From contig NZ_QLTT01000001.1 of assembly GCF_003269295.1 (NCBI RefSeq), positions 329,635 to 393,634 on the forward strand: a stretch of DNA of 64,000 nt, read 5' to 3'. The stretch's first letter is position 1, and the number at the start of each line of letters is the position of its first letter. The notes beneath the pieces are model-generated. The model made no database searches and was not told where the DNA came from. It saw nothing but the letters and a program-made list of their open reading frames with translations. Below, piece by piece: positions 13,781 through 27,958 of the stretch. Position numbers and translations under genes: made by a program. This stretch comes from Lentzea atacamensis. Its GTDB lineage: Bacteria > Actinomycetota > Actinomycetes > Mycobacteriales > Pseudonocardiaceae.

Positions 13781-14916
13781 GGCAGCTCCGCGGTGATCAC
13801 GGTGGGGCCGCCGCGCGGGCTGTCCACTGTGAACGCTCCGTCCACCGCGGCCACTCGCCGGGCCAGGCCGGACAGGCCGCTGCCGGCCGGGTCCGCGCCG
13901 CCGATTCCGTCGTCCTCGATCCGCACGACGACCATGGTGCCCGCACGGGTGACCGAGAGGTCGATCCGGGTGGCCCTGGCGTGCTTGCTGACGTTCGTCA
14001 CGGCTTCGGAGGCGACGAAGTACGCGGGGATCTCGATGGTGCCCGGGTGGCGTTCGGTGAGCTCGTAGCGCAGCCGGACGGGTACGCCGGAGCGTTCCGC
14101 CAGCGACTCGAGGGCGGCGTGCAGGCCGTCGCTGTCCAGTCCGACCGGGTACACGCGCCAGGTCACCTCACGCAGGTCGAGCAGCACCCGCCCGGCCTCC
14201 TCGCGGGCCTGCTCCAGCAGTTCCGCGGCCTGGTCGGGACGGCGGCTCGCGCGGCCGAGCAGCATGCCCAGCGCGACCATGCGCTGCTGCACGCCGTCGT
14301 GCAGGTCGCGTTCGATCCGCCGGCGCTCCTCGTTGATCACCTCGACCACCTCGGCGCGGCTGACGGTGAGCTCGGAGACGCGGCGCCGCAACACCTCCTG
14401 CGCGGTCGGGCCGAGGAAGTGGCTCGCCAGCCTGCGGTCGAGGCTCTCCACCCCGAGCAGCCCCTGCAGCGTGATGAACACCAGCAACGTGCCGAACAGC
14501 GTGAAGGTGATCGGGTCGTACCAGCTCATCTCACCGTCACCGGAACCGATGGCCTCTCCCCCGGTCACCATCTGCCACACCATGACCGCCCCGGTCGCCG
14601 CACCGAGGAGGATCAGCACCAGCACACCGGCGCCGAGCCCGCCGATCAGCCAGCGGATGCCCAGGTACTGCAGCGCGCGCTTGCCCGAGTAGTCCTCGGC
14701 GGTGCACGGCCCGTGGTAGCGCTCGATCCTCCTGCGCTCGAACTCCGCGATCCTCCTGGCCGCGGCGAAGACCACGGGCCGGGCGGACGGCACCAGCAGC
14801 ACGGGCACGGCGCAGATGAGGAAGGCGAGCTCGGCGAACGCGCCGGCACCCCCGATCGCCAGCCCTGCCGCAAGACGCGTGGCACGGCGCAGCAGACCAC
14901 CACGTTCGAACAGCAC
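13768..14916 (-). CDS. Membrane sensor histidine kinase (HisKA_3/HATPase_c)
   Basis: About 382 residues from GTG 14916; the start is uncertain because GGAG abuts it directly and the open frame goes on to 15000. Two membrane regions occur in the N-terminal half (LAELAFLICAVPVLLV-like and LIGGLGAGVLVLILLGAATGAVMVW, then ITFTLFGTLLVFITLQGLLG). The dimerisation/phospho-acceptor helix is NEERRRIERDLHDGVQQRMVALG with the conserved His, and the ATPase domain has ASEAVTNVSKHARA and VRIEDDGIGGADPAGSGLSGL. It phosphorylates the adjacent response regulator. The signal is unknown. Confidence 0.92.
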   Translation of the reverse strand: MLFERGGLLRRATRLAAGLAIGGAGAFAELAFLICAVPVLLVPSARPVVFAAARRIAEFERRRIERYHGPCTAEDYSGKRALQYLGIRWLIGGLGAGVLVLILLGAATGAVMVWQMVTGGEAIGSGDGEMSWYDPITFTLFGTLLVFITLQGLLGVESLDRRLASHFLGPTAQEVLRRRVSELTVSRAEVVEVINEERRRIERDLHDGVQQRMVALGMLLGRASRRPDQAAELLEQAREEAGRVLLDLREVTWRVYPVGLDSDGLHAALESLAERSGVPVRLRYELTERHPGTIEIPAYFVASEAVTNVSKHARATRIDLSVTRAGTMVVVRIEDDGIGGADPAGSGLSGLARRVAAVDGAFTVDSPRGGPTVITAELPCAW

Positions 14917-15084
14917 CTCCGCAGCGTAGCCAGCACCGGGCAGCTGATCCACTGCGGTCGGCCGCACACCTGCACTGTGGAAAACCACACCCCGCCGCAA
15001 CCGGCAGTTTCACGCCCGGCTCTACCTCGAAGCCCACCGGCTGCTGGACACTGTCCCGGTCGGTGAGGGAGAGGTGACGAGCAT

Positions 15085-15924
15085 TTGGCAACGGGGGACG
15101 AACCACTGCAGTTCCGGGTTCTGGGGACGTTCGAGGTCACGCGCGGCAGTCGAAGATGCACGCCGACGGCCTCGAAGCAGCGGGCGTTGCTCGCCTTGCT
15201 CGCCTTGCACGCCAACGAGTTCGTGGCGACGAGTCGCATCGTCGACCAGTTGTGGTCGCGTGGCGCGCCGCGTTCGGCCATCGCCGCACTGCACGGCTAC
15301 GTGACCGCGGTGCGGCGGGTGCTCACGCCGGGCTTGAGGAGCGCCAGGACGTCTCATCCCGTTCTGAACACCCGCCCCTCGGGCTACATGCTCTGCCTGG
15401 AGCCGCATCAGCTGGACCTGACCAGGTTCCGCCAGCTGGTGAAACAGGCTCAGGCCGAGGTCGCGGCCGGCGACTGCGGGCAGGCACGGGAGATGTTCAC
15501 CGCGGCGCTCGGGTTGTGGCGCGGGTCGCCGTTGGCCGACCTGCGGGAGACGGGCATGTTCGACCACGACATCTCGCGGCTGGAAAAGGAATACCTGGAG
15601 CTGTTGCGCAGCCGGTTCGACGTCATGCTCTGCCAGGGCGACGGGCACCTGGCGGTGTTCGAGCTCGAGGAGCTGTGCGCGAAGTACCCGTTGTGGGAGA
15701 GGTTCCACGAGCAGCTGATGCTCGCGCTGTGCCAGGCCGAGCGGCGGGCCGACGCGCTCAACGCCTACGCCAGGGCGTATCGGGTGCTCTCCAGCGACGC
15801 CGGGATCGAACCGGGGCCGCGGTTGCGGGCCATGCACCAGGTCGTCCTCAGCGGGGACGACCCCCGGCACTGGCACGACCACCGGCACGCCGGGCTACGG
15901 GTGGCGCACACCGTTTCTCTTTAG
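15085..15924 (+). CDS. SARP-family transcriptional activator
   Basis: A 279-residue Streptomyces antibiotic regulatory protein. Residues 8-100 are the OmpR-like winged helix (LQFRVLGTFEVTRGSRRCTPTASKQRALLALLALHANEFVATSRIVDQLWSRG), followed by a bacterial transcriptional activation domain (RFRQLVKQAQAEVAAGDCGQAREMFTAALGLWRGSPLADL...). The TTG start follows GGGAGAGGTGACG. It faces the end of a four-gene operon headed by a small peptide, and three repeats with the 11-bp spacing recognised by SARPs lie at that operon's promoter (19944-19972). It is therefore the likely pathway-specific activator. Confidence 0.93.
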   Translation: MATGDEPLQFRVLGTFEVTRGSRRCTPTASKQRALLALLALHANEFVATSRIVDQLWSRGAPRSAIAALHGYVTAVRRVLTPGLRSARTSHPVLNTRPSGYMLCLEPHQLDLTRFRQLVKQAQAEVAAGDCGQAREMFTAALGLWRGSPLADLRETGMFDHDISRLEKEYLELLRSRFDVMLCQGDGHLAVFELEELCAKYPLWERFHEQLMLALCQAERRADALNAYARAYRVLSSDAGIEPGPRLRAMHQVVLSGDDPRHWHDHRHAGLRVAHTVSL

Positions 15925-16413
15925 GCGCCAGTCGAACTGCCGCCGGTAGCAGACGAGCGGTTCACCTTCCGCCACCTCGGTGTGGGTGACCTCGCCGATC
16001 AGCACGGTGTGGTCGCCGTGGTCGAACACCGCGGTCGCGGTGCAGCGCAGGTAGATCGGTGCCGCGCCCAGGCGGGGCACGGTGCCGTCCCACGCCCAGG
16101 CGACATCGGCGAACTTGTCCGCGCCCCGGCTCGCGAACGTCCGCGCGGTCCGTTCCTGAGCGCTGCCGAGCAGATGCACACCGAACTCCGCGCAGTGGGT
16201 CAAGGGATCGCGGCACCGTGAGGCGTGGTCGACGACCACCAGCACCGACGGCGGATGCACGCTGTACGAACAGATCGACGAGACGAGCAGGCCGCACGGC
16301 CGGCCGGCCGCCTGCCGGGTGGTGACCACGGCGAGGCCCGAGACCAGCCTGCTCATGGCGTCGGTGAACGTGGCCACCGGCAGTGCGGCGGCCACGTTCT
16401 CCGTTGCTGTCAC
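15895..16413 (-). CDS. Flavin reductase (HpaC/ActVB-like FMN-binding split barrel)
   Basis: 172 residues from GTG 16413, chosen because AGGAGG (16420-16425) lies 6 bases upstream; that site overlaps the stop codon of the TPR gene, so the two are coupled. Family motifs are present: FTDAMSRLVSGLAVVTT, GLLVSSICSYSVHPPSVLVVVD, and the substrate-binding FGVHLLGSAQERTARTFASRG...KFADVAWAWDGTVPRL. Such enzymes supply reduced FMN or FAD to a partner monooxygenase or halogenase. No partner is encoded in the cluster, so it may act on the peptide pathway directly or serve an enzyme elsewhere. Overlaps the convergent SARP gene by 30 bases. Confidence 0.9.
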   Translation of the reverse strand: MTATENVAAALPVATFTDAMSRLVSGLAVVTTRQAAGRPCGLLVSSICSYSVHPPSVLVVVDHASRCRDPLTHCAEFGVHLLGSAQERTARTFASRGADKFADVAWAWDGTVPRLGAAPIYLRCTATAVFDHGDHTVLIGEVTHTEVAEGEPLVCYRRQFDWRLKRNGVRHP

Positions 16414-16423
16414 CGCGATCCTC

Positions 16424-18505
16424 CTAAACCGTCGCGGCGGCGCAGAGTTCCCTGCGGTGCCGCGCGTCCTCGTCATCGGCGACAGCGAGAACGGCGTCGT
16501 AGTCGGCGATCGCCGCGGCCCACTCGCCGGACTCCTCGTACGCGACCGCGCGGTTGAACCTCGCCTCCGGGTTGTCGTCGAGCTTGATCGCCCGGCTGAG
16601 GTAGCTGATCGCGTCGGTCAGGTCGCCGGACGCCGCCGCGATCGTGCCGCGGATCGCCCAGGCCTCGGCCAGGCTGTCGTCGCGTTGCACCGCCTGCGCC
16701 AGTGCTTCGGACGCCTCGTCGTACTGCTCTCGTTCGACGAGCAGCTGTCCCTTGAGGCACAACAGGTGTGCGTTGTCCGGTGCCAGCTCCAGGGCGGCGG
16801 TGACATCGCGCCACGCCGCCTCGACGTCACCGTTGGCGAGCAGGAGTCCCGCGCGGTTGATCCTGGCGTCGACGTGCCTCGGGTCGAGTTCGACGACGTA
16901 GCCGAAGTCGGCGATGGCGCCTTCGATGTCGCCGAGCGCCAGGCGTGCGTCGGCGATGTTGTAGTAGGCCTCCGGGAACGGCGGGGAGAGCCGCAGTGCC
17001 TCGCGGTAGGCGGCGATCGCTTCCTCGTCGCGGCCGAGTCTGCGCAGGATGTTGCCGACGTTGAAGTGGTGCTCGGGGAAGTTCGGGTCCCGTTCGACGA
17101 CGTGGCTGTAGTCGGCGAGCGCGTCTTCCAGCCTGCCCATGCCGCCGTAGACCTGTGCCCGGTTGTAGCGCAGCACCAGGCGGTGCAGCGCGTGCTCGTG
17201 CGGTTCCAGGTCGCGGTCCAGCCTGGCCAAGCCGTCGTTGAGCAGCGCGAGCGCCACCTCCGGTTTCTGCTCGCGCACCTCCACCAGTGCGAGGCCGTTG
17301 CGGGTGAACACCGACTGGAAGGCTTCCTTCTTCGGGTCGGTCAGCAGCGACGCCATCGCGATCGCCTGGTTCATCCACGCCCGTGCGCGAACGTAGTCCC
17401 GCTCGCCGTCCGGGTAGTGCCGCGCGTGCAGCATCGCCGTCGAATACGCCAGTTCAAGGTGCACGGCCGGATCCGTTGACGCTGCCCGGCCCTCGACGTA
17501 AAGAGCTTCTGCCTCGTGCGCACGTCCGACCGCCGCCAGCGCGATGCCCGTCTGGAACGTGAGCTGCCACCACGTCTCGGCATCGGTTTCCCGGTCGGCG
17601 ACCGCGCGGCCGCGCAGGCCGAGGTCCGCCGCGGCCTGGTAGAGGCCGGTCTTCTGGCAGTGGTCCATGGCGGCGCGCAGTGCTTTCGCGCCGGCGCCCG
17701 CGGGGTCGCTGCCGTGCTCCAGGTGGTACGGGATGGCGCCGAGGTGCAACGAGAACTCCGTGGACTGAGCGAGCTGCTCGGCTCGGGCGTCGTGGAGTGC
17801 GGCTCTGGCTTCGTTCGGCAGAGCGAGGTAGGCGGCGAGCAGACGCGGGTCGTCGGCCGTGCCGTCACTGTCCACATAGGCCTGTGCGGGGTGGTCCGGC
17901 AGCGGGTCCTCCGCCGCAGGTTGAGCTTCGACCACCCGCGCGTGTGCGGCGATCGTCCGCGCCAGCGACACGTCGATCTCGCCGCGGGGGTCGGCGAGCG
18001 GTGCGCGGCTCGTGCCCACCACCACGGTGAGGCCGGGGATGTCCTGGCGGCGCAGCAGGATCGCGATGAACTCCTGGTCCGACGGGTCGGCCTCGTGCGC
18101 GTTCTCGAACACGAGGGTGCGCGGACCGCCGCCCAGCGCCGCCAGGTGGTCGCGCAGCACCTCTGCCAGGCCGTTGCCGATGTTGCGGGTGTGCAGCCGC
18201 GAGTAGTACCGGGTGCGTTCGTCGTTCTGCACGGCCCACTCCAGCGTGTGCCACGCGCTGGGCACCCGGCCGGCCAGCTCCGGCGTGCTCGTGAGGAGTT
18301 CGATGTTGTGCCGCTCCCCCAGCTCGGGGCAGCGGTCCAGCAGGTCGTCGGCGATCAGGCGCAGCAACGATCCCGCCGCGGTGTACGGCCCGCGCAACCG
18401 CCGGTGGGCGTCGACCGCCGCCCAGATCGGCGGCAGGTCCAGGTCGGCGAGCGCGAGTGCCCGGTCGCGCCGCCGGTCGGCGCGGATCCAGTAGCGGCTG
18501 TCCAT
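16424..18505 (-). CDS. TPR-repeat protein with N-terminal STAND-like domain lacking a P-loop
   Basis: 693 residues from ATG 18505 (GAGAGGA upstream). The first 300 residues resemble a degenerate AAA/STAND domain: a Walker-B-like TLVFENAHEADPSDQEFIAILL and the following VVVGTSRAPL are visible, but no GxxxxGK[ST] is found. From about residue 310 the protein is helical, and from about 450 it has clear tetratricopeptide repeats (HFNVGNILRRLGRDEEAIAAYREALRLSP, AYYNIADARLALGDIEGAIADFGYVVELDP). It is 13 bases downstream of the M50 protease. A scaffold or chaperone role in peptide maturation is inferred from context only. Confidence 0.85.
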   Translation of the reverse strand: MDSRYWIRADRRRDRALALADLDLPPIWAAVDAHRRLRGPYTAAGSLLRLIADDLLDRCPELGERHNIELLTSTPELAGRVPSAWHTLEWAVQNDERTRYYSRLHTRNIGNGLAEVLRDHLAALGGGPRTLVFENAHEADPSDQEFIAILLRRQDIPGLTVVVGTSRAPLADPRGEIDVSLARTIAAHARVVEAQPAAEDPLPDHPAQAYVDSDGTADDPRLLAAYLALPNEARAALHDARAEQLAQSTEFSLHLGAIPYHLEHGSDPAGAGAKALRAAMDHCQKTGLYQAAADLGLRGRAVADRETDAETWWQLTFQTGIALAAVGRAHEAEALYVEGRAASTDPAVHLELAYSTAMLHARHYPDGERDYVRARAWMNQAIAMASLLTDPKKEAFQSVFTRNGLALVEVREQKPEVALALLNDGLARLDRDLEPHEHALHRLVLRYNRAQVYGGMGRLEDALADYSHVVERDPNFPEHHFNVGNILRRLGRDEEAIAAYREALRLSPPFPEAYYNIADARLALGDIEGAIADFGYVVELDPRHVDARINRAGLLLANGDVEAAWRDVTAALELAPDNAHLLCLKGQLLVEREQYDEASEALAQAVQRDDSLAEAWAIRGTIAAASGDLTDAISYLSRAIKLDDNPEARFNRAVAYEESGEWAAAIADYDAVLAVADDEDARHRRELCAAATV

Positions 18506-18518
18506 GGGGTGCGTCCTC

Positions 18519-19727
18519 TCAGTGAATGACGTGGTGCAGGCGGCGGTCCCGGCGCGTCTGCACGCGTTCGCGGACCATGAGCCAGCCGAGCACTGCGAAC
18601 TGCGCGATCGCCACGCCGCCGAAGACGATCGAGTCGAGCAGCAGGGGCGTGGGCACCGCGTCACCCGTGAGCCGGCCGAGCACGCCGACGGTGAACCGGT
18701 AGACCACGGGAGCTCCGGCGAGCACGAACGTCGTGAGGCTCGCGGTGTACCCGACCACGACGAGCCACGAGTACCAGAGCGCCACCCGGCGGTCGACCGG
18801 GTGCAGCATCGACTCGTCGGTTTCGAGGCGCCCGAACAGCCGCCTGAACCGGTTGCGGACCATCTGCCGTGCGGCCCCGTGCAGGTCGACGCAACCGAGC
18901 ACCGTGCTCACGAGCACGTAGATGTCCGTGCGCAGGTAGAAGAAGAACTGCCAGATCACCCGAAGCAGCGCGGCGAACGCGACGGCGAGCAGGAAACGCC
19001 CCGCACCCGACAGCGAGCCGTCCGCGTGCCGCGTCAGGTCGGCGGCGATGGTGCACGCGGCGATCCCGATGACGTCGGCCAGCAGCCCGGCGACGATCGG
19101 CAGGTACCGCTTCCGCCGCGGCACGGCCACGAGCCCGTCGAGCGACGTCTCCAGCACGATGAAGTAGAGCCGCCGCCCGATTCTCAGCCGCGACTTGACG
19201 CCGAGCCTGCGCCCGGCCAGCGCGTGAAACGACTCGTGCAGGAGAATGAGCGGAACGGCGGCGAGGAAAAGCCCGACCTGGATGACCATGTAGTAGTCGG
19301 AGAAGAAGATGTTGTGATACGTCGGCCGCAGGTCCGGCGTGCGCACCATGGCGTACAGCGCCCAGCCGGCCAGTCCCGCGTAGACGACCCACGCCCACGG
19401 CGAGAACAGCGCGGCACCGAGTTTGGCGAAGCGCACCGGTTCCGTCGCGGTGACGAATTCGCCGGACTTCCGAATGAGGCCGAGCTCGTCGAGTCCCGCG
19501 ACGACGTCCTCGATGTCAACGCTTTCCCCGTAGGCCCGCTCGAACCATTCAGCCGCCTGGCGCGGCGTGTCCCCCGCTTCCAGTCTGCGCACGAGCTCGG
19601 CGCCCTCAGCGGGGAAGATGCCGTACGAGTCGACGTCGGCACGCCCGATCGTCACCTCGTCGCCGTCCTCCAGGAACACCAGCGGATGCAGCGCCACCGG
19701 CCGGTCCAGATCGAACTCGGTCACCAC
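18519..19727 (-). CDS. PqqD-like domain fused to an M50-type membrane metalloprotease
   Basis: 402 residues. Residues 10-90 match the PqqD/RRE winged-helix fold used to bind RiPP leader peptides (HPLVFLEDGDEVTIGRADVDSYGIFP...DIEDVVAGLDELGLI). Residues 105-400 hold about six hydrophobic spans with the zinc motif HESFH at 164-168 and a third-ligand candidate Asp268 (YLRTDIYVLV), as in YydH-like peptide zinc proteases. GTG 19727 follows GGGAGG; GTG 19724 is the alternative. The gene lies between the peptide gene and the TPR gene. Probable role: recognises and cleaves, and perhaps exports, the small peptide encoded just upstream. Confidence 0.88.
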   Translation of the reverse strand: MVTEFDLDRPVALHPLVFLEDGDEVTIGRADVDSYGIFPAEGAELVRRLEAGDTPRQAAEWFERAYGESVDIEDVVAGLDELGLIRKSGEFVTATEPVRFAKLGAALFSPWAWVVYAGLAGWALYAMVRTPDLRPTYHNIFFSDYYMVIQVGLFLAAVPLILLHESFHALAGRRLGVKSRLRIGRRLYFIVLETSLDGLVAVPRRKRYLPIVAGLLADVIGIAACTIAADLTRHADGSLSGAGRFLLAVAFAALLRVIWQFFFYLRTDIYVLVSTVLGCVDLHGAARQMVRNRFRRLFGRLETDESMLHPVDRRVALWYSWLVVVGYTASLTTFVLAGAPVVYRFTVGVLGRLTGDAVPTPLLLDSIVFGGVAIAQFAVLGWLMVRERVQTRRDRRLHHVIH

Positions 19728-19748
19728 GTTCCTCCCCGCGTGAGGCCA

Positions 19749-19778
19749 GATGCGCTGGGCGGCAAGGCCCAGCGCATC
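19749..19778 (-). terminator. Perfect 12-bp stem-loop between the peptide gene and the protease gene
   Basis: GATGCGCTGGGC (19749-19760) pairs exactly with GCCCAGCGCATC (19767-19778) across a 6-base loop. It lies 11 bases after the peptide stop and 22 bases before the protease start. It has no T-tract, so it may be a partial terminator or mRNA-stabilising hairpin that keeps peptide expression above that of the downstream genes, as is common after RiPP precursor genes. Confidence 0.7.
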
Positions 19779-19789
19779 CCCGCCGCGCC

Positions 19790-19891
19790 TTAGACCGGCT
19801 TGACGTTGTACTGCGAACAGGCGGCCGCCGTGAGGCGAACCGGGCCCACCTTGCGAATGGTGATCCGCTTCATTTTCTTGGTCTTCTCCAT
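19790..19891 (-). CDS. Small peptide gene, candidate RiPP precursor (33 residues)
   Basis: ATG 19891 has a perfect AGGAGGT six bases upstream (19898-19904), and the frame ends at TAA 19790-19792, giving 33 residues. The N-terminal 20 residues are Lys/Arg-rich (MEKTKKMKRITIRK, then VGPVRL), and the C-terminal end is TAAACSQYNVKPV with one Cys and one Tyr. This basic leader-like half plus small Ala/Cys/Tyr tail is what a RiPP precursor or exported signalling peptide would look like. It is the first gene of an operon continuing with a PqqD-M50 protease, a TPR protein and a flavin reductase. The modification is unknown. The gene is below usual annotation cut-offs. Confidence 0.75.
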   Translation of the reverse strand: MEKTKKMKRITIRKVGPVRLTAAACSQYNVKPV

Positions 19892-19943
19892 GAGTGCACC
19901 TCCTCTTGCTGCGATACCGACATCGAGAGAGTTTGCCCGCACA

Positions 19944-19972
19944 CTCCAAGAAATCTCCAAGAGGGCTCCAAA
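19944..19972 (-). promoter_or_regulatory. Three SARP-type direct repeats, 11-bp spacing, upstream of the peptide gene
   Basis: On the plus strand CTCCAAG (19944), CTCCAAG (19955) and CTCCAAA (19966) are spaced exactly 11 bp apart. On the minus strand, which carries the peptide operon, they read TTTGGAG, CTTGGAG, CTTGGAG. The last repeat is followed after 8 bases by CAAACT, a possible -10 box. SARP activators bind heptamer direct repeats of 11-bp period placed 8 bp before the -10, so the geometry fits control by the SARP at 15085. Confidence 0.7.
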
Positions 19973-20001
19973 ATCGAATCGTCACGCTATAGGAGAAGAA
20001 A

Positions 20002-20067
20002 ATGGGCAACATTCCAGGTTGCCCGTCCTGCAAATGTCATAGGGTGGTGACATGGCTGAGCTGCTGA
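20002..20067 (+). CDS. Possible 21-residue Cys-rich peptide (tentative)
   Basis: ATG 20002 is preceded by AGGAGAAG at 19991-19998 and opens a 21-codon frame, MGNIPGCPSCKCH and then a short tail ending in Cys, stopping at TGA 20065-20067. It overlaps the first codons of the dehydratase gene in another frame. GGGCAAC/GTTGCCC (20004-20024) forms a 7-bp stem inside it. It could be a second small peptide, an upstream leader ORF, or chance. Confidence 0.3.
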   Translation: MGNIPGCPSCKCHRVVTWLSC

Positions 20068-21008
20068 CCATCGCCGACGTTCGGGCTGCGGCCGAGGTGC
20101 TCGACGGGCGGGTGCTGCGGACACCCACGCTCCCCTCGGCGGGGTTGTCCACGCTGCTGGGCGTGCCGACGACGGTGAAGCTGGAACTGTTGCAGCGCAG
20201 CGGTTCGTTCAAGACGCGCGGCGCCTTCGCGAAGATCCTCTCGCTGTCCGGCGCGGCGCGGGCGGCGGGCGTGATCGGCGTCAGCGGTGGCAACCACGGG
20301 ATCGCGCTGGCCGACGCCGCGAACGAACTGGGCGTCGCCGCCACCGTCGTGATGCCCTCCACGGCACCCGCTCGCTCGGTGGACCTCGCTCGTGCGTCTG
20401 GTGCCGACGTGCGGCTGACCGACGACCTGCCGTCAGCCTTCGTGCTGCTGAACGAACTGGTGGCGGCGGGCGCGACCCTCGTGCACCCCTACGACGACCA
20501 GGTCGTGATCGCCGGCCAGGGCACGGTCGGGCTGGAGTTCGCGAGCGACGCCCCACACCTCACCGACGTGCTGGTGAGCATCGGCGGCGGAGGGCTGGCC
20601 GCGGGCGTCGCGACCGCGTTCCACGCGCTCGTGCCCGGCGTCCGCGTGTGGGGCGTGGAGGTCGAGGGCGCCGACGCGATGCACCGCGCACTGGACGCGG
20701 GCGGCCCCGTGGAGATCACGCCGACGTCGATCGTCTCGACTCTCTCCGCACCCCACGTGTCGCAGCTGACCTACGACCACGCCGTCGCGCTTCTCGAGGA
20801 CGTCCTGGTGGTGTCCGACGCCGATGCCGTACGGGGCACGATCACGCTGGCCGAGACGCAGAAGGTGTGGGCGGAGCCCGCGGCGGGCTGCCTGGTGCCG
20901 GCGGCACGCAGGGTGCTCGACCGGGTCGGGCCCGGCGCCCGGCTCGGGATCGTGCTGTGCGGAGGGAACGCGACCGTCGCCGACGTCGTCCGGTGGGCGA
21001 ACGCCTGA
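20052..21008 (+). CDS. Threonine/serine dehydratase homologue (PLP fold type II)
   Basis: 318 residues. PLP-binding Lys in RSGSFKTRGAFAKIL, the GGNHGIALADAA loop and a glycine-rich phosphate-binding SIGGGGLAAGVATAF are all present, as is the terminal VLCGGNATV. It resembles catabolic threonine ammonia-lyases or serine racemase/dehydratase enzymes without an ACT regulatory domain. The ATG at 20052 has only a weak GGTGG nearby. It diverges from the small peptide operon; whether it belongs to that pathway is open. Confidence 0.88.
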   Translation: MAELLTIADVRAAAEVLDGRVLRTPTLPSAGLSTLLGVPTTVKLELLQRSGSFKTRGAFAKILSLSGAARAAGVIGVSGGNHGIALADAANELGVAATVVMPSTAPARSVDLARASGADVRLTDDLPSAFVLLNELVAAGATLVHPYDDQVVIAGQGTVGLEFASDAPHLTDVLVSIGGGGLAAGVATAFHALVPGVRVWGVEVEGADAMHRALDAGGPVEITPTSIVSTLSAPHVSQLTYDHAVALLEDVLVVSDADAVRGTITLAETQKVWAEPAAGCLVPAARRVLDRVGPGARLGIVLCGGNATVADVVRWANA

Positions 21009-21998: not shown

Positions 21999-24900
21999 AT
22001 GCGACTCCGAGCTTGGGCGGTCACGTGCGGACTGTGCGTGTCACTCGCCGTTGCGCCACCCTCCTCAGCCGATCCGCCGACGCCCGGACCGGGCAGAACG
22101 ATCACCCTGATCACCGGGGATCAGGTGGTGGAGCACCGAACTCCAGGTGGCACGCGCACTTACGTGCCGCGAGCGGCGCGCGGACGGGAGCAGGTCCAGT
22201 TCGTCCAGTACGAGATTCCAGGTCACCACTACGTCGTCCCCGCCGACGCCGCCGGACTCGTGGCGGCCGGAAAGGTGGACGAGCAACTGTTCGACATGGC
22301 ACCGCTCTTCGCGCAGGACGACGAGCACCTGCGAGTTGTTGTGCAGCACGGCGAGGAAGTCACGTCCCTCGCGGCGGCCGGTGACACGCGGACGCTCGCG
22401 AGCCTGCCCGGTTCCGCCCTGCGCGTGCGGAAAGCCGACGCGGCCGCGGCGTGGCCCAAGCTGACCGCTCCCGGCGTCAGCAAGGTGTGGCTCGACCGCA
22501 AGGTCCAGGCTTCGCTGCACGAGAGCATGCCGCAGATCGGCATGCCCGCGGCCTGGTCGGCCGGGTACACCGGCAAGGGCGTCAAGGTCGCGGTGCTCGA
22601 CACCGGCGTGGACGACGGCCATCCCGACCTCGAGGGTGCCGTGGTGGCTGCCCGCGACTTCACCGGCAGCACCAGCGGCACCGCCGATCGGTACGGCCAC
22701 GGCACCCACGTGTCCTCGATCATCCGCGGCACCGCCGACCGTTATCGCGGTGGTGCGTCCGACACGTCTCTGCTGTCCGGCAAAGTTCTCGACGACTGGG
22801 GGTCCGGCTTCCTGTCGTGGGTCGTCGCGGGCATGGAGTGGGCGACCGCGAACGGCGCCAGGATCGTCAACCTCAGTCTGGGCACCGGTGTGCCCAGTGC
22901 CGGTGACGACGTCATGTCGGTCGCCGTCGACCGGCTCACCCAGCAGACCGGCGCGTTGTTCGTCGTCTCCGCCGGGAACAACCCCGCCGTGCTGGGTTCG
23001 CCCGCCGCCGCACGGGAAGCGCTCACGGTCGGCGCGGTGACCAAGCAGGACGCCGTCGCCGGGTTCTCCGCACGGGGGCCGCGCGCGATCGACAGCCTGC
23101 TCAAGCCCGAGATCACCGCGCCAGGCGTCGACATCACCGCGGCACGGGCGAAGGACACCGAGATGGGCGTGCCCGTGGACGACCGCTACACCACGGCGTC
23201 GGGCACGTCCATGGCGGCGCCGCACGTCGCCGCGGCGGCCGCGGTGCTGGCCGGGAGCCGTCCCGGCTGGCAGGCGCCGGAGCTCAAGGCGGCGCTCATG
23301 AGCACGGCGAAGACGGTGGCGGGCGAGACCGTGTACGCGCAGGGCGCCGGGCGGGTCGACGTGGCCAGGCTCGTCCGTCAGAACGTCCACGCGAGCCCTG
23401 GCGGCGTGAGTTTCGGCCGGGTCTACGACAAGGCACTGAGCCAGGTCGTGACCGTGCACAACACCGGGCGGTCACCGGTCAGCCTCGGCCTCACCCTGGA
23501 CGTGCGTGACAGCGCCGGAAACCCCGCTCCGAGCGGAATGTTCGGCACCGACGTGAACCGCGTCGACGTACCGGCCGCGGGCACCGTCCAGGTCACCGTG
23601 CACTCGCGGGCAGGCGTCCACGCGCCACCGGGCGACTACGGCGGATGGCTGGCCGGATCGTCCGCTGACGGGAGCGACGCCGTCCGCGTCCCGATCGCGT
23701 TGACCAAGGAAGCCGTGCCACATCACGACATCGATCTGGTCACGCTCGACACCGCGGGCAAGCCGGTCACCGGCTACCCGATCTGCGTCAGCCTGGACAC
23801 GGGTGAACGCTGCCGCACCGTCGAACGCGGTGACGGCCGCCTGTCCGCGCGAGTGCCGGCCGGTCGCCACCTGCTCGCCACGAACGTCTTCGAACCCGGC
23901 CCCAGGCCGGACACCTGGCAGGTGTCGGCGATCGTGCGGCCGGTTTCGGTCAGTCAGGACAGCACGTTCGTCCTCGACGCGCGCAACGCGATCCCGTCCA
24001 GGGTCGCCGTGGACCGGCCGAGCACCGACCTCGGCGCCATGCTCACCGTCGCCTGCGACACGCCGGCGGGCAAGGCGATGTTCAGCGCCTCGGCGGCACG
24101 GCTCGCGGATCTGCGCGTGGCACCGGCCGCCGACGAGGCCGAAGCCGGTTGCCGCAGCACGTTCGGCACGGTGCTGGTGTCCGAAAAGGACACCGCGTCG
24201 AGCCCGTGGACCTACCACCTGATCTTCCCGTCGACCGGCGACATCCCCGCACCGGTGTGGCAGGCGCACGACGACCAGCTCGCGGTCGTCGAAGCCCGCG
24301 CCGCCGCCCAGGGAACCGTGCCGCAGCACGCCGTCAAGACCGTCTCGCCGATCTCGGACGGGTGGTTCGTCGTCCCGTGGAACTCGCTCGTCACACCACT
24401 TCCCGGTGTGCGCACGGAGTACCGCTCCCCCGGCCCGTGGACCTGGTACACCTACTTCAGCACCTACACGGACAACACCGAGACGTTCCTGTCACAGCAG
24501 GTCGCCCACACCACGTATCCGGCAGCGGGCCCGCGCGTCGAACGGTGGAACGCCGCGGTGTTCGGACCGAGCCTCGCCCCCGTCGACAGCACGGCCCACC
24601 GCTTCGGCAACACCGTGCTCTTCCAGATCCCGCTGTACGGCGACCAGTCACCGGACAACTCGGGCTACCTGCCCGGCATGACCGGTACCGTGTCGCTGTT
24701 CCGCGGCCACGACCTGATCGGTCCGGGCTCGATCCCGTTCGGCAACGTCAGCGCGTGGGCCCAGGTCCCGGCGGAACCGGGACGCTACCGCCTGGTCGCC
24801 GACGCGCAGCAGTCCTCGGCGGGCACCCCGCTGTCACCGCGGATCAGCGCCGAGTGGACGTTCCGCTCCGGCCGCGTCGACGACACCACGCAGATCCCGT

Positions 24901-25229
24901 TGCCGCTGCAGGTGGTCCGGTTCGCGCCGCCGGTCGACGAGCACAACACGGCACCGGCCGGGCAGGAGTTCCGCGTGCCGGTGACCGTGCAGCGGGTCAC
25001 GGGCGCACCGCCGTCGCTCGTGATGGGCATCTCCGTGTTCGCTTCCTACGACGAAGGAACCACGTGGCATCCCGTGCACCTCATCCCCACCGCGACCGGG
25101 TGGGACGCGGTGCTGCACCATCCGCCGAACGCACGCACGGTGTCGTTGCGCGCCACCGCGACCGACGCCGGTGACAACTCCGTGCAACAGACCATCGTGC
25201 GCGCTTACGAGCTGAGGCAGGCGGGCTAG
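21999..25229 (+). CDS. Secreted subtilisin-family (S8) serine protease, 1076 residues
   Basis: A Sec signal peptide (MRLRAWAVTCGLCVSLAVAP, likely cleaved near PSSA) precedes a pro-region and an S8 catalytic domain at about 190-455. The triad is visible: Asp201 (VAVLDTGVDDGHPDL), His237 (YGHGTHVSS) and Ser404 (SGTSMAAPHV), plus oxyanion Asn in SAGNNPAV. About 600 further residues form beta-rich, Ig-like domains, as in large actinomycete subtilases. There is no Shine-Dalgarno sequence; ATG 21999 lies 5 bases after a DasR-box-like palindrome, so translation may be leaderless. Likely an extracellular nutrient-scavenging protease. Confidence 0.93.
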   Translation: MRLRAWAVTCGLCVSLAVAPPSSADPPTPGPGRTITLITGDQVVEHRTPGGTRTYVPRAARGREQVQFVQYEIPGHHYVVPADAAGLVAAGKVDEQLFDMAPLFAQDDEHLRVVVQHGEEVTSLAAAGDTRTLASLPGSALRVRKADAAAAWPKLTAPGVSKVWLDRKVQASLHESMPQIGMPAAWSAGYTGKGVKVAVLDTGVDDGHPDLEGAVVAARDFTGSTSGTADRYGHGTHVSSIIRGTADRYRGGASDTSLLSGKVLDDWGSGFLSWVVAGMEWATANGARIVNLSLGTGVPSAGDDVMSVAVDRLTQQTGALFVVSAGNNPAVLGSPAAAREALTVGAVTKQDAVAGFSARGPRAIDSLLKPEITAPGVDITAARAKDTEMGVPVDDRYTTASGTSMAAPHVAAAAAVLAGSRPGWQAPELKAALMSTAKTVAGETVYAQGAGRVDVARLVRQNVHASPGGVSFGRVYDKALSQVVTVHNTGRSPVSLGLTLDVRDSAGNPAPSGMFGTDVNRVDVPAAGTVQVTVHSRAGVHAPPGDYGGWLAGSSADGSDAVRVPIALTKEAVPHHDIDLVTLDTAGKPVTGYPICVSLDTGERCRTVERGDGRLSARVPAGRHLLATNVFEPGPRPDTWQVSAIVRPVSVSQDSTFVLDARNAIPSRVAVDRPSTDLGAMLTVACDTPAGKAMFSASAARLADLRVAPAADEAEAGCRSTFGTVLVSEKDTASSPWTYHLIFPSTGDIPAPVWQAHDDQLAVVEARAAAQGTVPQHAVKTVSPISDGWFVVPWNSLVTPLPGVRTEYRSPGPWTWYTYFSTYTDNTETFLSQQVAHTTYPAAGPRVERWNAAVFGPSLAPVDSTAHRFGNTVLFQIPLYGDQSPDNSGYLPGMTGTVSLFRGHDLIGPGSIPFGNVSAWAQVPAEPGRYRLVADAQQSSAGTPLSPRISAEWTFRSGRVDDTTQIPLPLQVVRFAPPVDEHNTAPAGQEFRVPVTVQRVTGAPPSLVMGISVFASYDEGTTWHPVHLIPTATGWDAVLHHPPNARTVSLRATATDAGDNSVQQTIVRAYELRQAG

Positions 25230-27223: not shown

Positions 27224-27958
27224 ATGAGCGACTATCGAAGATCAGTGGTACCAGTGCTCCTGGTGACCGCGGGCCTGGTGTTCTGGCCCACGGGCACGGC
27301 GGCAGCGCAGCCGCAGACGTGCAACGGCCTGACCGCCACGCACGTCGGCACCAACGGACCGGACGTCGTGTTCGGCACCAACGGGCCGGACGTCATCGTG
27401 ACGCTCGGCGGAGACGACGTGGTGTTCGGCCTCGGTGGCAACGACACCGTCTGTCTCGGGGCCGGCGCGGACGAGTTCTTCGGCGGTGCGGGCAACGACT
27501 GGGCCTCCGGTGAGGCCGGCGCCGACACCCTCAACGGCGAGGCCGGCAACGACACCCTCCTGGGCGGCGACGGCCCGGACCGCCTGGACGGCGCGGCCGG
27601 CAGCGACATCCTCAACGGCGGCGCTGCCGCCGACACCATCGAGGGCGGCGCGGGCGACGACACTGTCAACGCGGGAGCGGGCGCGGACTCCGTGAGCGGC
27701 GGTGAGGGCGCTGACACCCTCAACGGCCAGAACGGCGCCGACCGCATCGAAGGCGGAAACGGCAACGACCGCATCAACGGTGGCGCGGGCGTTGACGACC
27801 TCGACGGCGGTGCCGGCAACGACATCGTCAACGGTGGCGCGGGGAACGACACGCTGACCGATCCGTCCGGCCTGGACGTCGGCGACGGCGGCGCGGGACC
27901 GGCCGACCGCTGCGACTCGCGGTTCGAGTCGCTGTCCGGCTGCGAGATCATCTTCTGA
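27224..27958 (+). CDS. Secreted RTX-type calcium-binding repeat protein
   Basis: 244 residues: signal peptide (VVPVLLVTAGLVFWPTGTAAAQ), then more than ten nonapeptide repeats of the form GGxGxDxLx (for example GGAGNDTLLGGDGPDRLDGA, GGNGNDRINGGAGVDDLDGG), which bind Ca2+ in a parallel beta-roll. A Cys pair near the N-terminus (QTCNGL, DTVCLG) and another near the end (DRCDSRF, SGCEI) could form disulfides. It uses a Sec signal rather than a type I secretion signal, as usual in Gram-positives. No enzymatic domain is present; probably a cell-surface or extracellular structural protein. Confidence 0.88.
   Translation: MSDYRRSVVPVLLVTAGLVFWPTGTAAAQPQTCNGLTATHVGTNGPDVVFGTNGPDVIVTLGGDDVVFGLGGNDTVCLGAGADEFFGGAGNDWASGEAGADTLNGEAGNDTLLGGDGPDRLDGAAGSDILNGGAAADTIEGGAGDDTVNAGAGADSVSGGEGADTLNGQNGADRIEGGNGNDRINGGAGVDDLDGGAGNDIVNGGAGNDTLTDPSGLDVGDGGAGPADRCDSRFESLSGCEIIF

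Follow-up and report, generated by a model that had tools for sequence, protein, structure and literature searches.

An operon of Lentzea atacamensis with a SARP-type operator that probably encodes a very small RiPP-type peptide

A 64-kb stretch of the Lentzea atacamensis genome (9.3 Mb in 32 contigs), hereafter called the window, carries on its minus strand an operon in which the gene for a precursor-like peptide of 33 residues is followed by genes for an M50-type protease, a tetratricopeptide repeat (TPR) protein and a flavin reductase. Judged from sequence, this operon is probably switched by a regulator of the Streptomyces antibiotic regulatory protein (SARP) family and makes a very small peptide of the ribosomally synthesized and post-translationally modified (RiPP) type. 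The gene set recurs in many actinobacteria, and its product is therefore probably a small peptide that has yet to be described. Protease relatives are widespread, yet the window protease matches no Pfam family and the peptide is very short.

Peptide gene and its recurrence

Loci for comparison were gathered by similarity of the protease, without use of the peptide. The resulting set comprised 104 wide loci. They come from the own family, from its class and from a second actinobacterial family, the last represented by the best 40 of a longer list. A home-made, GC-based gene caller found the protease gene in 102 of them, and a TPR homologue is present in 65 (64 with a called protease). Locus L140 was fetched through its protease match, the gene itself being uncalled; L160 likewise gave no protease gene, and L020 spans only 4.2 kb. 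The weakest protease matches of the own family (G030, G158, G159, G268 twice, G143 and G109) were not fetched wide. Eight TPR loci away from a protease were fetched in addition, leaving aside weak TPR matches in G230, G093, G059 and G143 and a second one in G195. Protease relatives as such form a broader group than the loci with the TPR pair and were found in 50 of 297 own-family and 79 of 250 second-family genomes; the eight from the named collection of genomes all belong to Lentzea. Neighbour families were defined by BLAST clustering, with Pfam scans of one or two members each, so that counts of neighbouring genes are approximate.

The peptide, MEKTKKMKRITIRKVGPVRLTAAACSQYNVKPV, is preceded by GAGGAGG and can be divided into a leader, RITIRKVGPVRLT, and a core, AAACSQYNVKPV. 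The conserved leader comprises 13 residues, K-I-x-V-R-K-x-G-x-V-R-L-T. A search pattern built on this leader, which excluded core residues, found it no more than 420 bases ahead of the protease gene in 62 of 64 loci. The two loci off the strict pattern differ in the last leader Thr, which is Ile in L046, and in the first leader Lys, which is Val in L137. Together with L140, the peptide gene is therefore present upstream of the protease in all 65 fetched loci that pair M50 and TPR genes. Elsewhere in 1.22 Mb of sequence read in six frames the strict motif was not found, save for two hits in L140, which are its own precursors: this locus carries two tandem, nearly identical copies with the cores SAAQPLYFCYE and SAAQPLYVCYQ.

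Pairs of leaders share a mean identity of 0.70 and pairs of cores one of 0.27, compared over 64 loci whose relatedness reduces them to 49 distinct peptides. Within these otherwise variable cores a Tyr is present in 64 of 64, two to seven residues past the LT, and a Cys in 63, the single Cys-less core being SQYWQ of L053. The core of L137, SPACTTYHAPG, contributes one further Tyr and Cys (65/65 and 64/65). Over 27 shared codons of ten Lentzea sequences dN/dS is about 0.19, summed over non-independent pairs; by such codon comparison the peptide is under purifying selection. The locus thus has what marks the genes of RiPP systems, a ribosomally made precursor, constant in its leader and variable in its core, beside processing genes.

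An original prediction, made from the letters of this DNA alone, had proposed a precursor-like peptide gene at this position, and its recurrence beside the protease-TPR pair in every one of the 65 loci bears this out. The prediction had named two outcomes that would speak against it, a pair mostly devoid of a peptide and a peptide lacking conservation, and neither was found. Its proposed ACxxY-like tail holds for part of the family (AAACSQY, AAACSIY) and fails as a general rule. Taken as a whole, the original interpretation is supported in part.

The core Tyr also accompanies the protease-TPR pair. Read by eye, it is absent from 25 peptides of protease loci that lack the TPR gene and from five of TPR loci that lack the protease, compared with its presence in 65 of 65 paired loci. 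Since it was seen only where both proteins occur, this fits a reaction on Tyr that requires both; decay is an alternative explanation of its loss in the protease-less peptides.

Regulator, operator and intergenic hairpin

Three direct repeats of TTGGAG with 11-bp spacing precede the peptide gene. They match without mismatch, where 0.01 such triples were expected in the window even when up to three mismatches were allowed. All ten Lentzea loci have this probable operator ahead of the peptide gene; four copies are identical and six differ at one or two bases. A triple hexamer repeat of this spacing beats shuffled sequences (p ≤ 0.05) in 31 of 64 loci, with about three expected, these being uncorrected values from non-independent relatives. 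Furthermore, a gene of the SARP-family BLAST cluster lies within four genes of the TPR gene in 34 of 65 loci, and SARP genes make up 37 of 399 genes near TPR vs 2 of 441 genes farther away. The sequence hallmarks of a SARP regulon, a SARP protein and direct repeats spaced by 11 bp in the promoter that it would control, thus occur together. The SARP-style repeats noticed in the original prediction are confirmed by these data, and SARP control of the operon is supported by operator and gene neighbourhood.

The exact triple occurs a single time in the 9.3-Mb genome, and the SARP therefore seems to control only this operon. A search for a wider regulon gave two further sites with three mismatches compared with one in the control, and these were regarded as background.

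The stretch following the stop codon of the peptide gene is predicted to fold (median z −3.04 in 63 loci; z < −2 in 54 and < −1 in 61). In ten Lentzea loci its stem of 13 pairs is paired in 99.2% of cells, with four pairs changed on both sides, and on sliding the pairing is 30 to 52%. Covariation exceeds that of shuffles in four of five measures; in the fifth, further pair types number 6 compared with 7.9 in shuffles. A search of positions 14900-20200 against Rfam gave no match for the hairpin. It may act as a partial transcription stop or as an mRNA stabiliser favouring the precursor over the enzymes; a similar precursor-over-enzyme arrangement is found in other precursor-first operons.

The gaps between the genes are short, with 62 bases between peptide and protease, 13 between protease and TPR and 10 between TPR and flavin reductase genes, and the ribosome site of the last overlaps the TPR stop codon. 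The SARP gene is convergent with the operon's end and overlaps the flavin reductase gene by 30 bp. The protease gene has a second possible start at 19724, which was used for the homologue searches. All features that the original prediction had named, from the peptide, M50, TPR and flavin reductase genes to the gaps, the overlapping ribosome site and the convergent SARP gene, were found.

Table 1 Features of the operon and its regulator in the window, in the order of transcription of the operon
Feature	Position	Strand	Remarks
Triple TTGGAG direct repeats, 11-bp spacing	19944..19971	-	Probable SARP operator; 0 mismatches
Precursor-like peptide gene, 33 aa	19793..19891 (stop codon 19790-19792)	-	ATG at 19891
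Covarying hairpin in the peptide-protease intergenic region	19749..19778	-	13 pairs
Membrane M50-type zinc protease	18519..19727	-	HESFH, invariant Asp267; N-terminal PqqD/RRE-like region (weak)
TPR protein, 693 aa	16424..18505	-	Superhelix ~241-693 behind N-terminal domain; TPR repeats clear in Pfam
Flavin reductase-like protein, 172 aa	15895..16413	-	PF01613 (Flavin_Reduct), clear in Pfam
Small SARP regulator, 279 aa	15085..15924	+	Trans_reg_C and BTAD; BTAD clear in Pfam

Near the operon, genes for a 1021-residue subtilase (22164-25229) and for an RTX-repeat HemolysinCabind protein (27254-27958) are located.

Protease, TPR protein and flavin enzymes

The window protease matched no Pfam family, and NCBIfam gave a single weak and irrelevant match. 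In alignments of 30 and of 91 sequences H163, E164, H167 and D267 are invariant, forming an HExxH motif with a downstream Asp. The assignment to M50 rests on these columns together with weak matches of relatives: Pfam M50 is reached by five of 30 relatives, the window copy not among them (best E 0.0042), and the YydH/LiaK model is touched by two (best E 0.0097). The daptide protease model NF041824 is touched by two relatives as well, L079 and L080, both without TPR, at 44 and 29 bits with a cutoff of 300.

A RiPP recognition element (RRE) of the PqqD kind at the N-terminus is weakly supported. PqqD is reached by three of 30 relatives (best E 0.0055) and a lasso PqqD chaperone model by one. In a profile search against PDB the lasso RRE TfuB1 was the sole match (E 0.056), and hhalign gave 43% and 5% with the two PqqD proteins of the own genome and 26% with ThiF N-termini. 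Of the PqqD-M50 label given originally, the M50 part accordingly stands on the invariant motif and the weak matches of relatives, and the PqqD-like part is weakly supported by the values just given.

The TPR protein was modelled with confidence (pLDDT 95.3). From about residue 241 the model predicts a long superhelix resembling LGN, RapI and OGT, the fold comparison covering residues 241-693. In the N-terminal head a Walker-B-like stretch aligns weakly (AAA_16 E 0.003; hhalign 10%), and the first 60 residues of the 65 TPR members contain no GK[ST] of a P-loop. Assignment of the head to the STAND domains was rejected, as the weak alignment is confined to the Walker-B-like stretch and none was obtained with the middle part of the SARPs.

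In 22 loci the TPR gene is followed on the same strand by a gene for a flavin reductase homologue, in ten by one for an Old Yellow-type enzyme (OYE). Within six genes a flavin reductase is found in 27 of 65 loci; it is outside the constant core. In L133, L134 and L135 a flavin reductase homologue, convergent with the TPR gene, adjoins a gene of styrene-monooxygenase type (PF17885 by a scan of the L133 copy), and in L126 (5516-6508) a RimK-like ATP-grasp gene is convergent on the OYE gene.

A Pfam scan of the operon agreed with the original observation that no radical SAM, YcaO, LanM or ATP-grasp gene is present, and among the 65 loci no constant modifying enzyme was recognised. Genes of the LanM cluster occur in four of 65 loci (Pfam scan of the L061 member only), next to a LanA-like gene in L054 and L068, an 85-residue gene in L061 and neither in L056. 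LanM was thus rejected as a general modifier, being close to only four loci and there mostly with another small gene.

A PF02441-type flavoprotein gene is divergent from the peptide gene in L059, L061 and L068, and only in these three loci does the core end in Cys (SSAPGYCTPCC, SSAAGYCSPCC, SSASAYAWPVC). They are close relatives, and the coincidence therefore counts about once. PF02441 is the family of EpiD-type Cys decarboxylases and also of CoaBC. Because the L059 protein also matches CoaBC models, below cutoff, a role as Cys decarboxylase is a guess.

Proposed pathway, alternatives and related loci

The leader and variable core, the precursor-first layout, the protease and the pathway-type regulator together make a RiPP-type product the reading we favour, with somewhat better than even confidence. 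In this pathway the SARP would switch the operon on, and the hairpin would hold precursor mRNA in excess of enzyme mRNA. The leader would be bound by the PqqD/RRE-like N-terminal region of the protease and by the TPR superhelix. Core Tyr and Cys would then be altered, most likely in a redox step with a flavin protein, which is the weakest step, and the M50 protease would cut after or near the leader LT inside the membrane and release the core. A chemical alteration of the core is suggested by its invariant Tyr and almost invariant Cys and by the flavin enzymes encoded next to TPR. If it takes place, the responsible enzyme is one that nobody would think to search for; the operon is small and self-contained, and its unique operator allows the question to be tested by expression of a single regulator.

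Several results weigh against this pathway. Only 32 of 65 loci have a flavin reductase or OYE gene as the next same-strand gene after TPR, and in 33 of 64 the 11-bp repeats fall short of significance. The Pfam scan recognised no RiPP-modifying enzyme among the operon proteins, and no exporter is found in the operon. LanM is accompanied by another small gene in three of its four loci, and the peptide studied here may therefore not be its substrate. Support for the RRE is weak.

There is a real chance that the gene set forms a class of its own beside the known RiPP-type kinds. More specifically, and tentatively, it may represent a new class with a minimal gene set: a precursor of 20-40 residues whose leader has 13, a membrane M50 protease, and a TPR protein whose head is devoid of a P-loop. 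Tyr and Cys would then be joined or oxidised by undescribed chemistry, driven by TPR together with a flavin oxidoreductase, which would be flavin reductase in the family of the window and OYE in the second actinobacterial family.

An unlikely alternative is a peptide pheromone, in which the M50 protease would free a short linear density signal sensed, as in RRNPP systems, by the TPR protein or the SARP. The TPR part of such a receptor is present, but no helix-turn-helix or other DNA-binding domain was found in the window TPR protein by Pfam. Moreover, the operator is unique in the genome and the SARP appears limited to this operon, whereas a signal would be expected to act on other targets, and linear pheromones do not usually have a constant Cys and Tyr.

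Still less probable is an unmodified, bacteriocin-like secreted Tyr/Cys peptide, perhaps disulfide-linked, that the protease would trim and export with the TPR and flavin proteins as accessories. The lack of a constant modifying enzyme in the 65 loci and a core consisting merely of SQYWQ agree with it, but strict retention of Tyr and near retention of Cys amid otherwise variable cores do not, nor do flavin enzymes adjoining TPR in 32 loci and a C-terminal Cys found only alongside the PF02441-type flavoprotein. A defence or toxin-antitoxin type module is very improbable: TPR together with a STAND-like remnant is generally similar to portions of defence proteins, but PADLOC gave weak matches to TPR repeats only and none to protease, flavin reductase or SARP, and the SARP operator and leader-core layout fit it poorly.

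The RiPP-type operon favoured here shares single elements with known systems. Daptides are characterised by a C-terminal Thr and C-terminus-modifying genes; L079 and L080 resemble them through their NF041824 matches far below cutoff, whereas the window protease has no such match, its peptide ends in Val and no C-terminus-modifying genes were seen. SARP-controlled RiPP clusters such as that of cacaoidin likewise combine a SARP with a RiPP, but the window operon and its flanks contain no lanthionine synthetase or other lanthionine enzyme among the proteins scanned, so that no lanthipeptide system is indicated. In passages of PMC12224297 medium-sized SARPs are described as often near RiPPs (74 of 227 within biosynthetic gene clusters), while the window SARP is small and outside this link.

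Membrane M50 proteases process epipeptides and pearlins according to sections of PMC10885120. Epipeptides (EpeX/YydF with the M50 protease EpeP/YydH) share with the window the pairing of a small precursor with such a protease, but the window operon has no ABC exporter, no radical SAM epimerase was found among the scanned operon proteins and flanking genes, and a TPR protein and a SARP are present instead. In pearlins the M50 proteases TglG and TmoG also act on a peptide, but no PEARL (LanB-like) ligase is among the scanned operon proteins. TPR proteins are mentioned in parts of the papers on the ammosamide (AmmC2; PMC12424672) and biphenomycin (PMC12707348) clusters, the likeness to ammosamide being the presence of such a protein in the cluster.

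A search of open-access literature, supplements excluded, gave nothing describing the peptide/M50/TPR set. Neither M50 nor tetratricopeptide was found in the main texts on RRE-Finder (PMC7470986), RREs (PMC12710340, 2025) and decRiPPter (PMC7794033), nor M50 in a ThiF review (PMC12250964).

ThiF (MccB-like) RiPPs are approached by cousin loci rather than by the window operon, which has no ThiF gene. Among the 38 protease loci without TPR, 26 carry a gene of the ThiF cluster and 25 a motif-related peptide; five more have peptides of 41-47 residues and eight show none. A second, even smaller cassette combines the same protease family with a ThiF-cluster gene and a peptide only 18-19 residues long, such as MTIEVRKVESVKATGFEV and MKIEVRKVEAVKATQFMT; it is found in L070, L072, L073, L074, L076, L149-L152, L154-L156 and L162. 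The ThiF protein of L073 has a weak winged-helix match at its N-terminus in Pfam.

Five of the eight TPR loci without protease retain a leader-like peptide of looser sequence; in these (L169, L170, L172, L173, L175) it lies directly upstream of TPR, has a Tyr-less core and is possibly decaying. The peptides of 41-47 residues in L114, L116, L117, L119 and L159 have the tail ASNSVGN or SSNSVGN and are encoded between ThiF and DUF6879 genes upstream of the protease; their C-terminal Asn is reminiscent of microcin C precursors. In L075, L077 and L078 the protease is accompanied by a related peptide of 29-31 residues ending in QPV or QPA, located behind HMG-CoA-synthase-like, hydrolase and 76-84-residue genes, with very long genes nearby that look the size of nonribosomal peptide synthetases.
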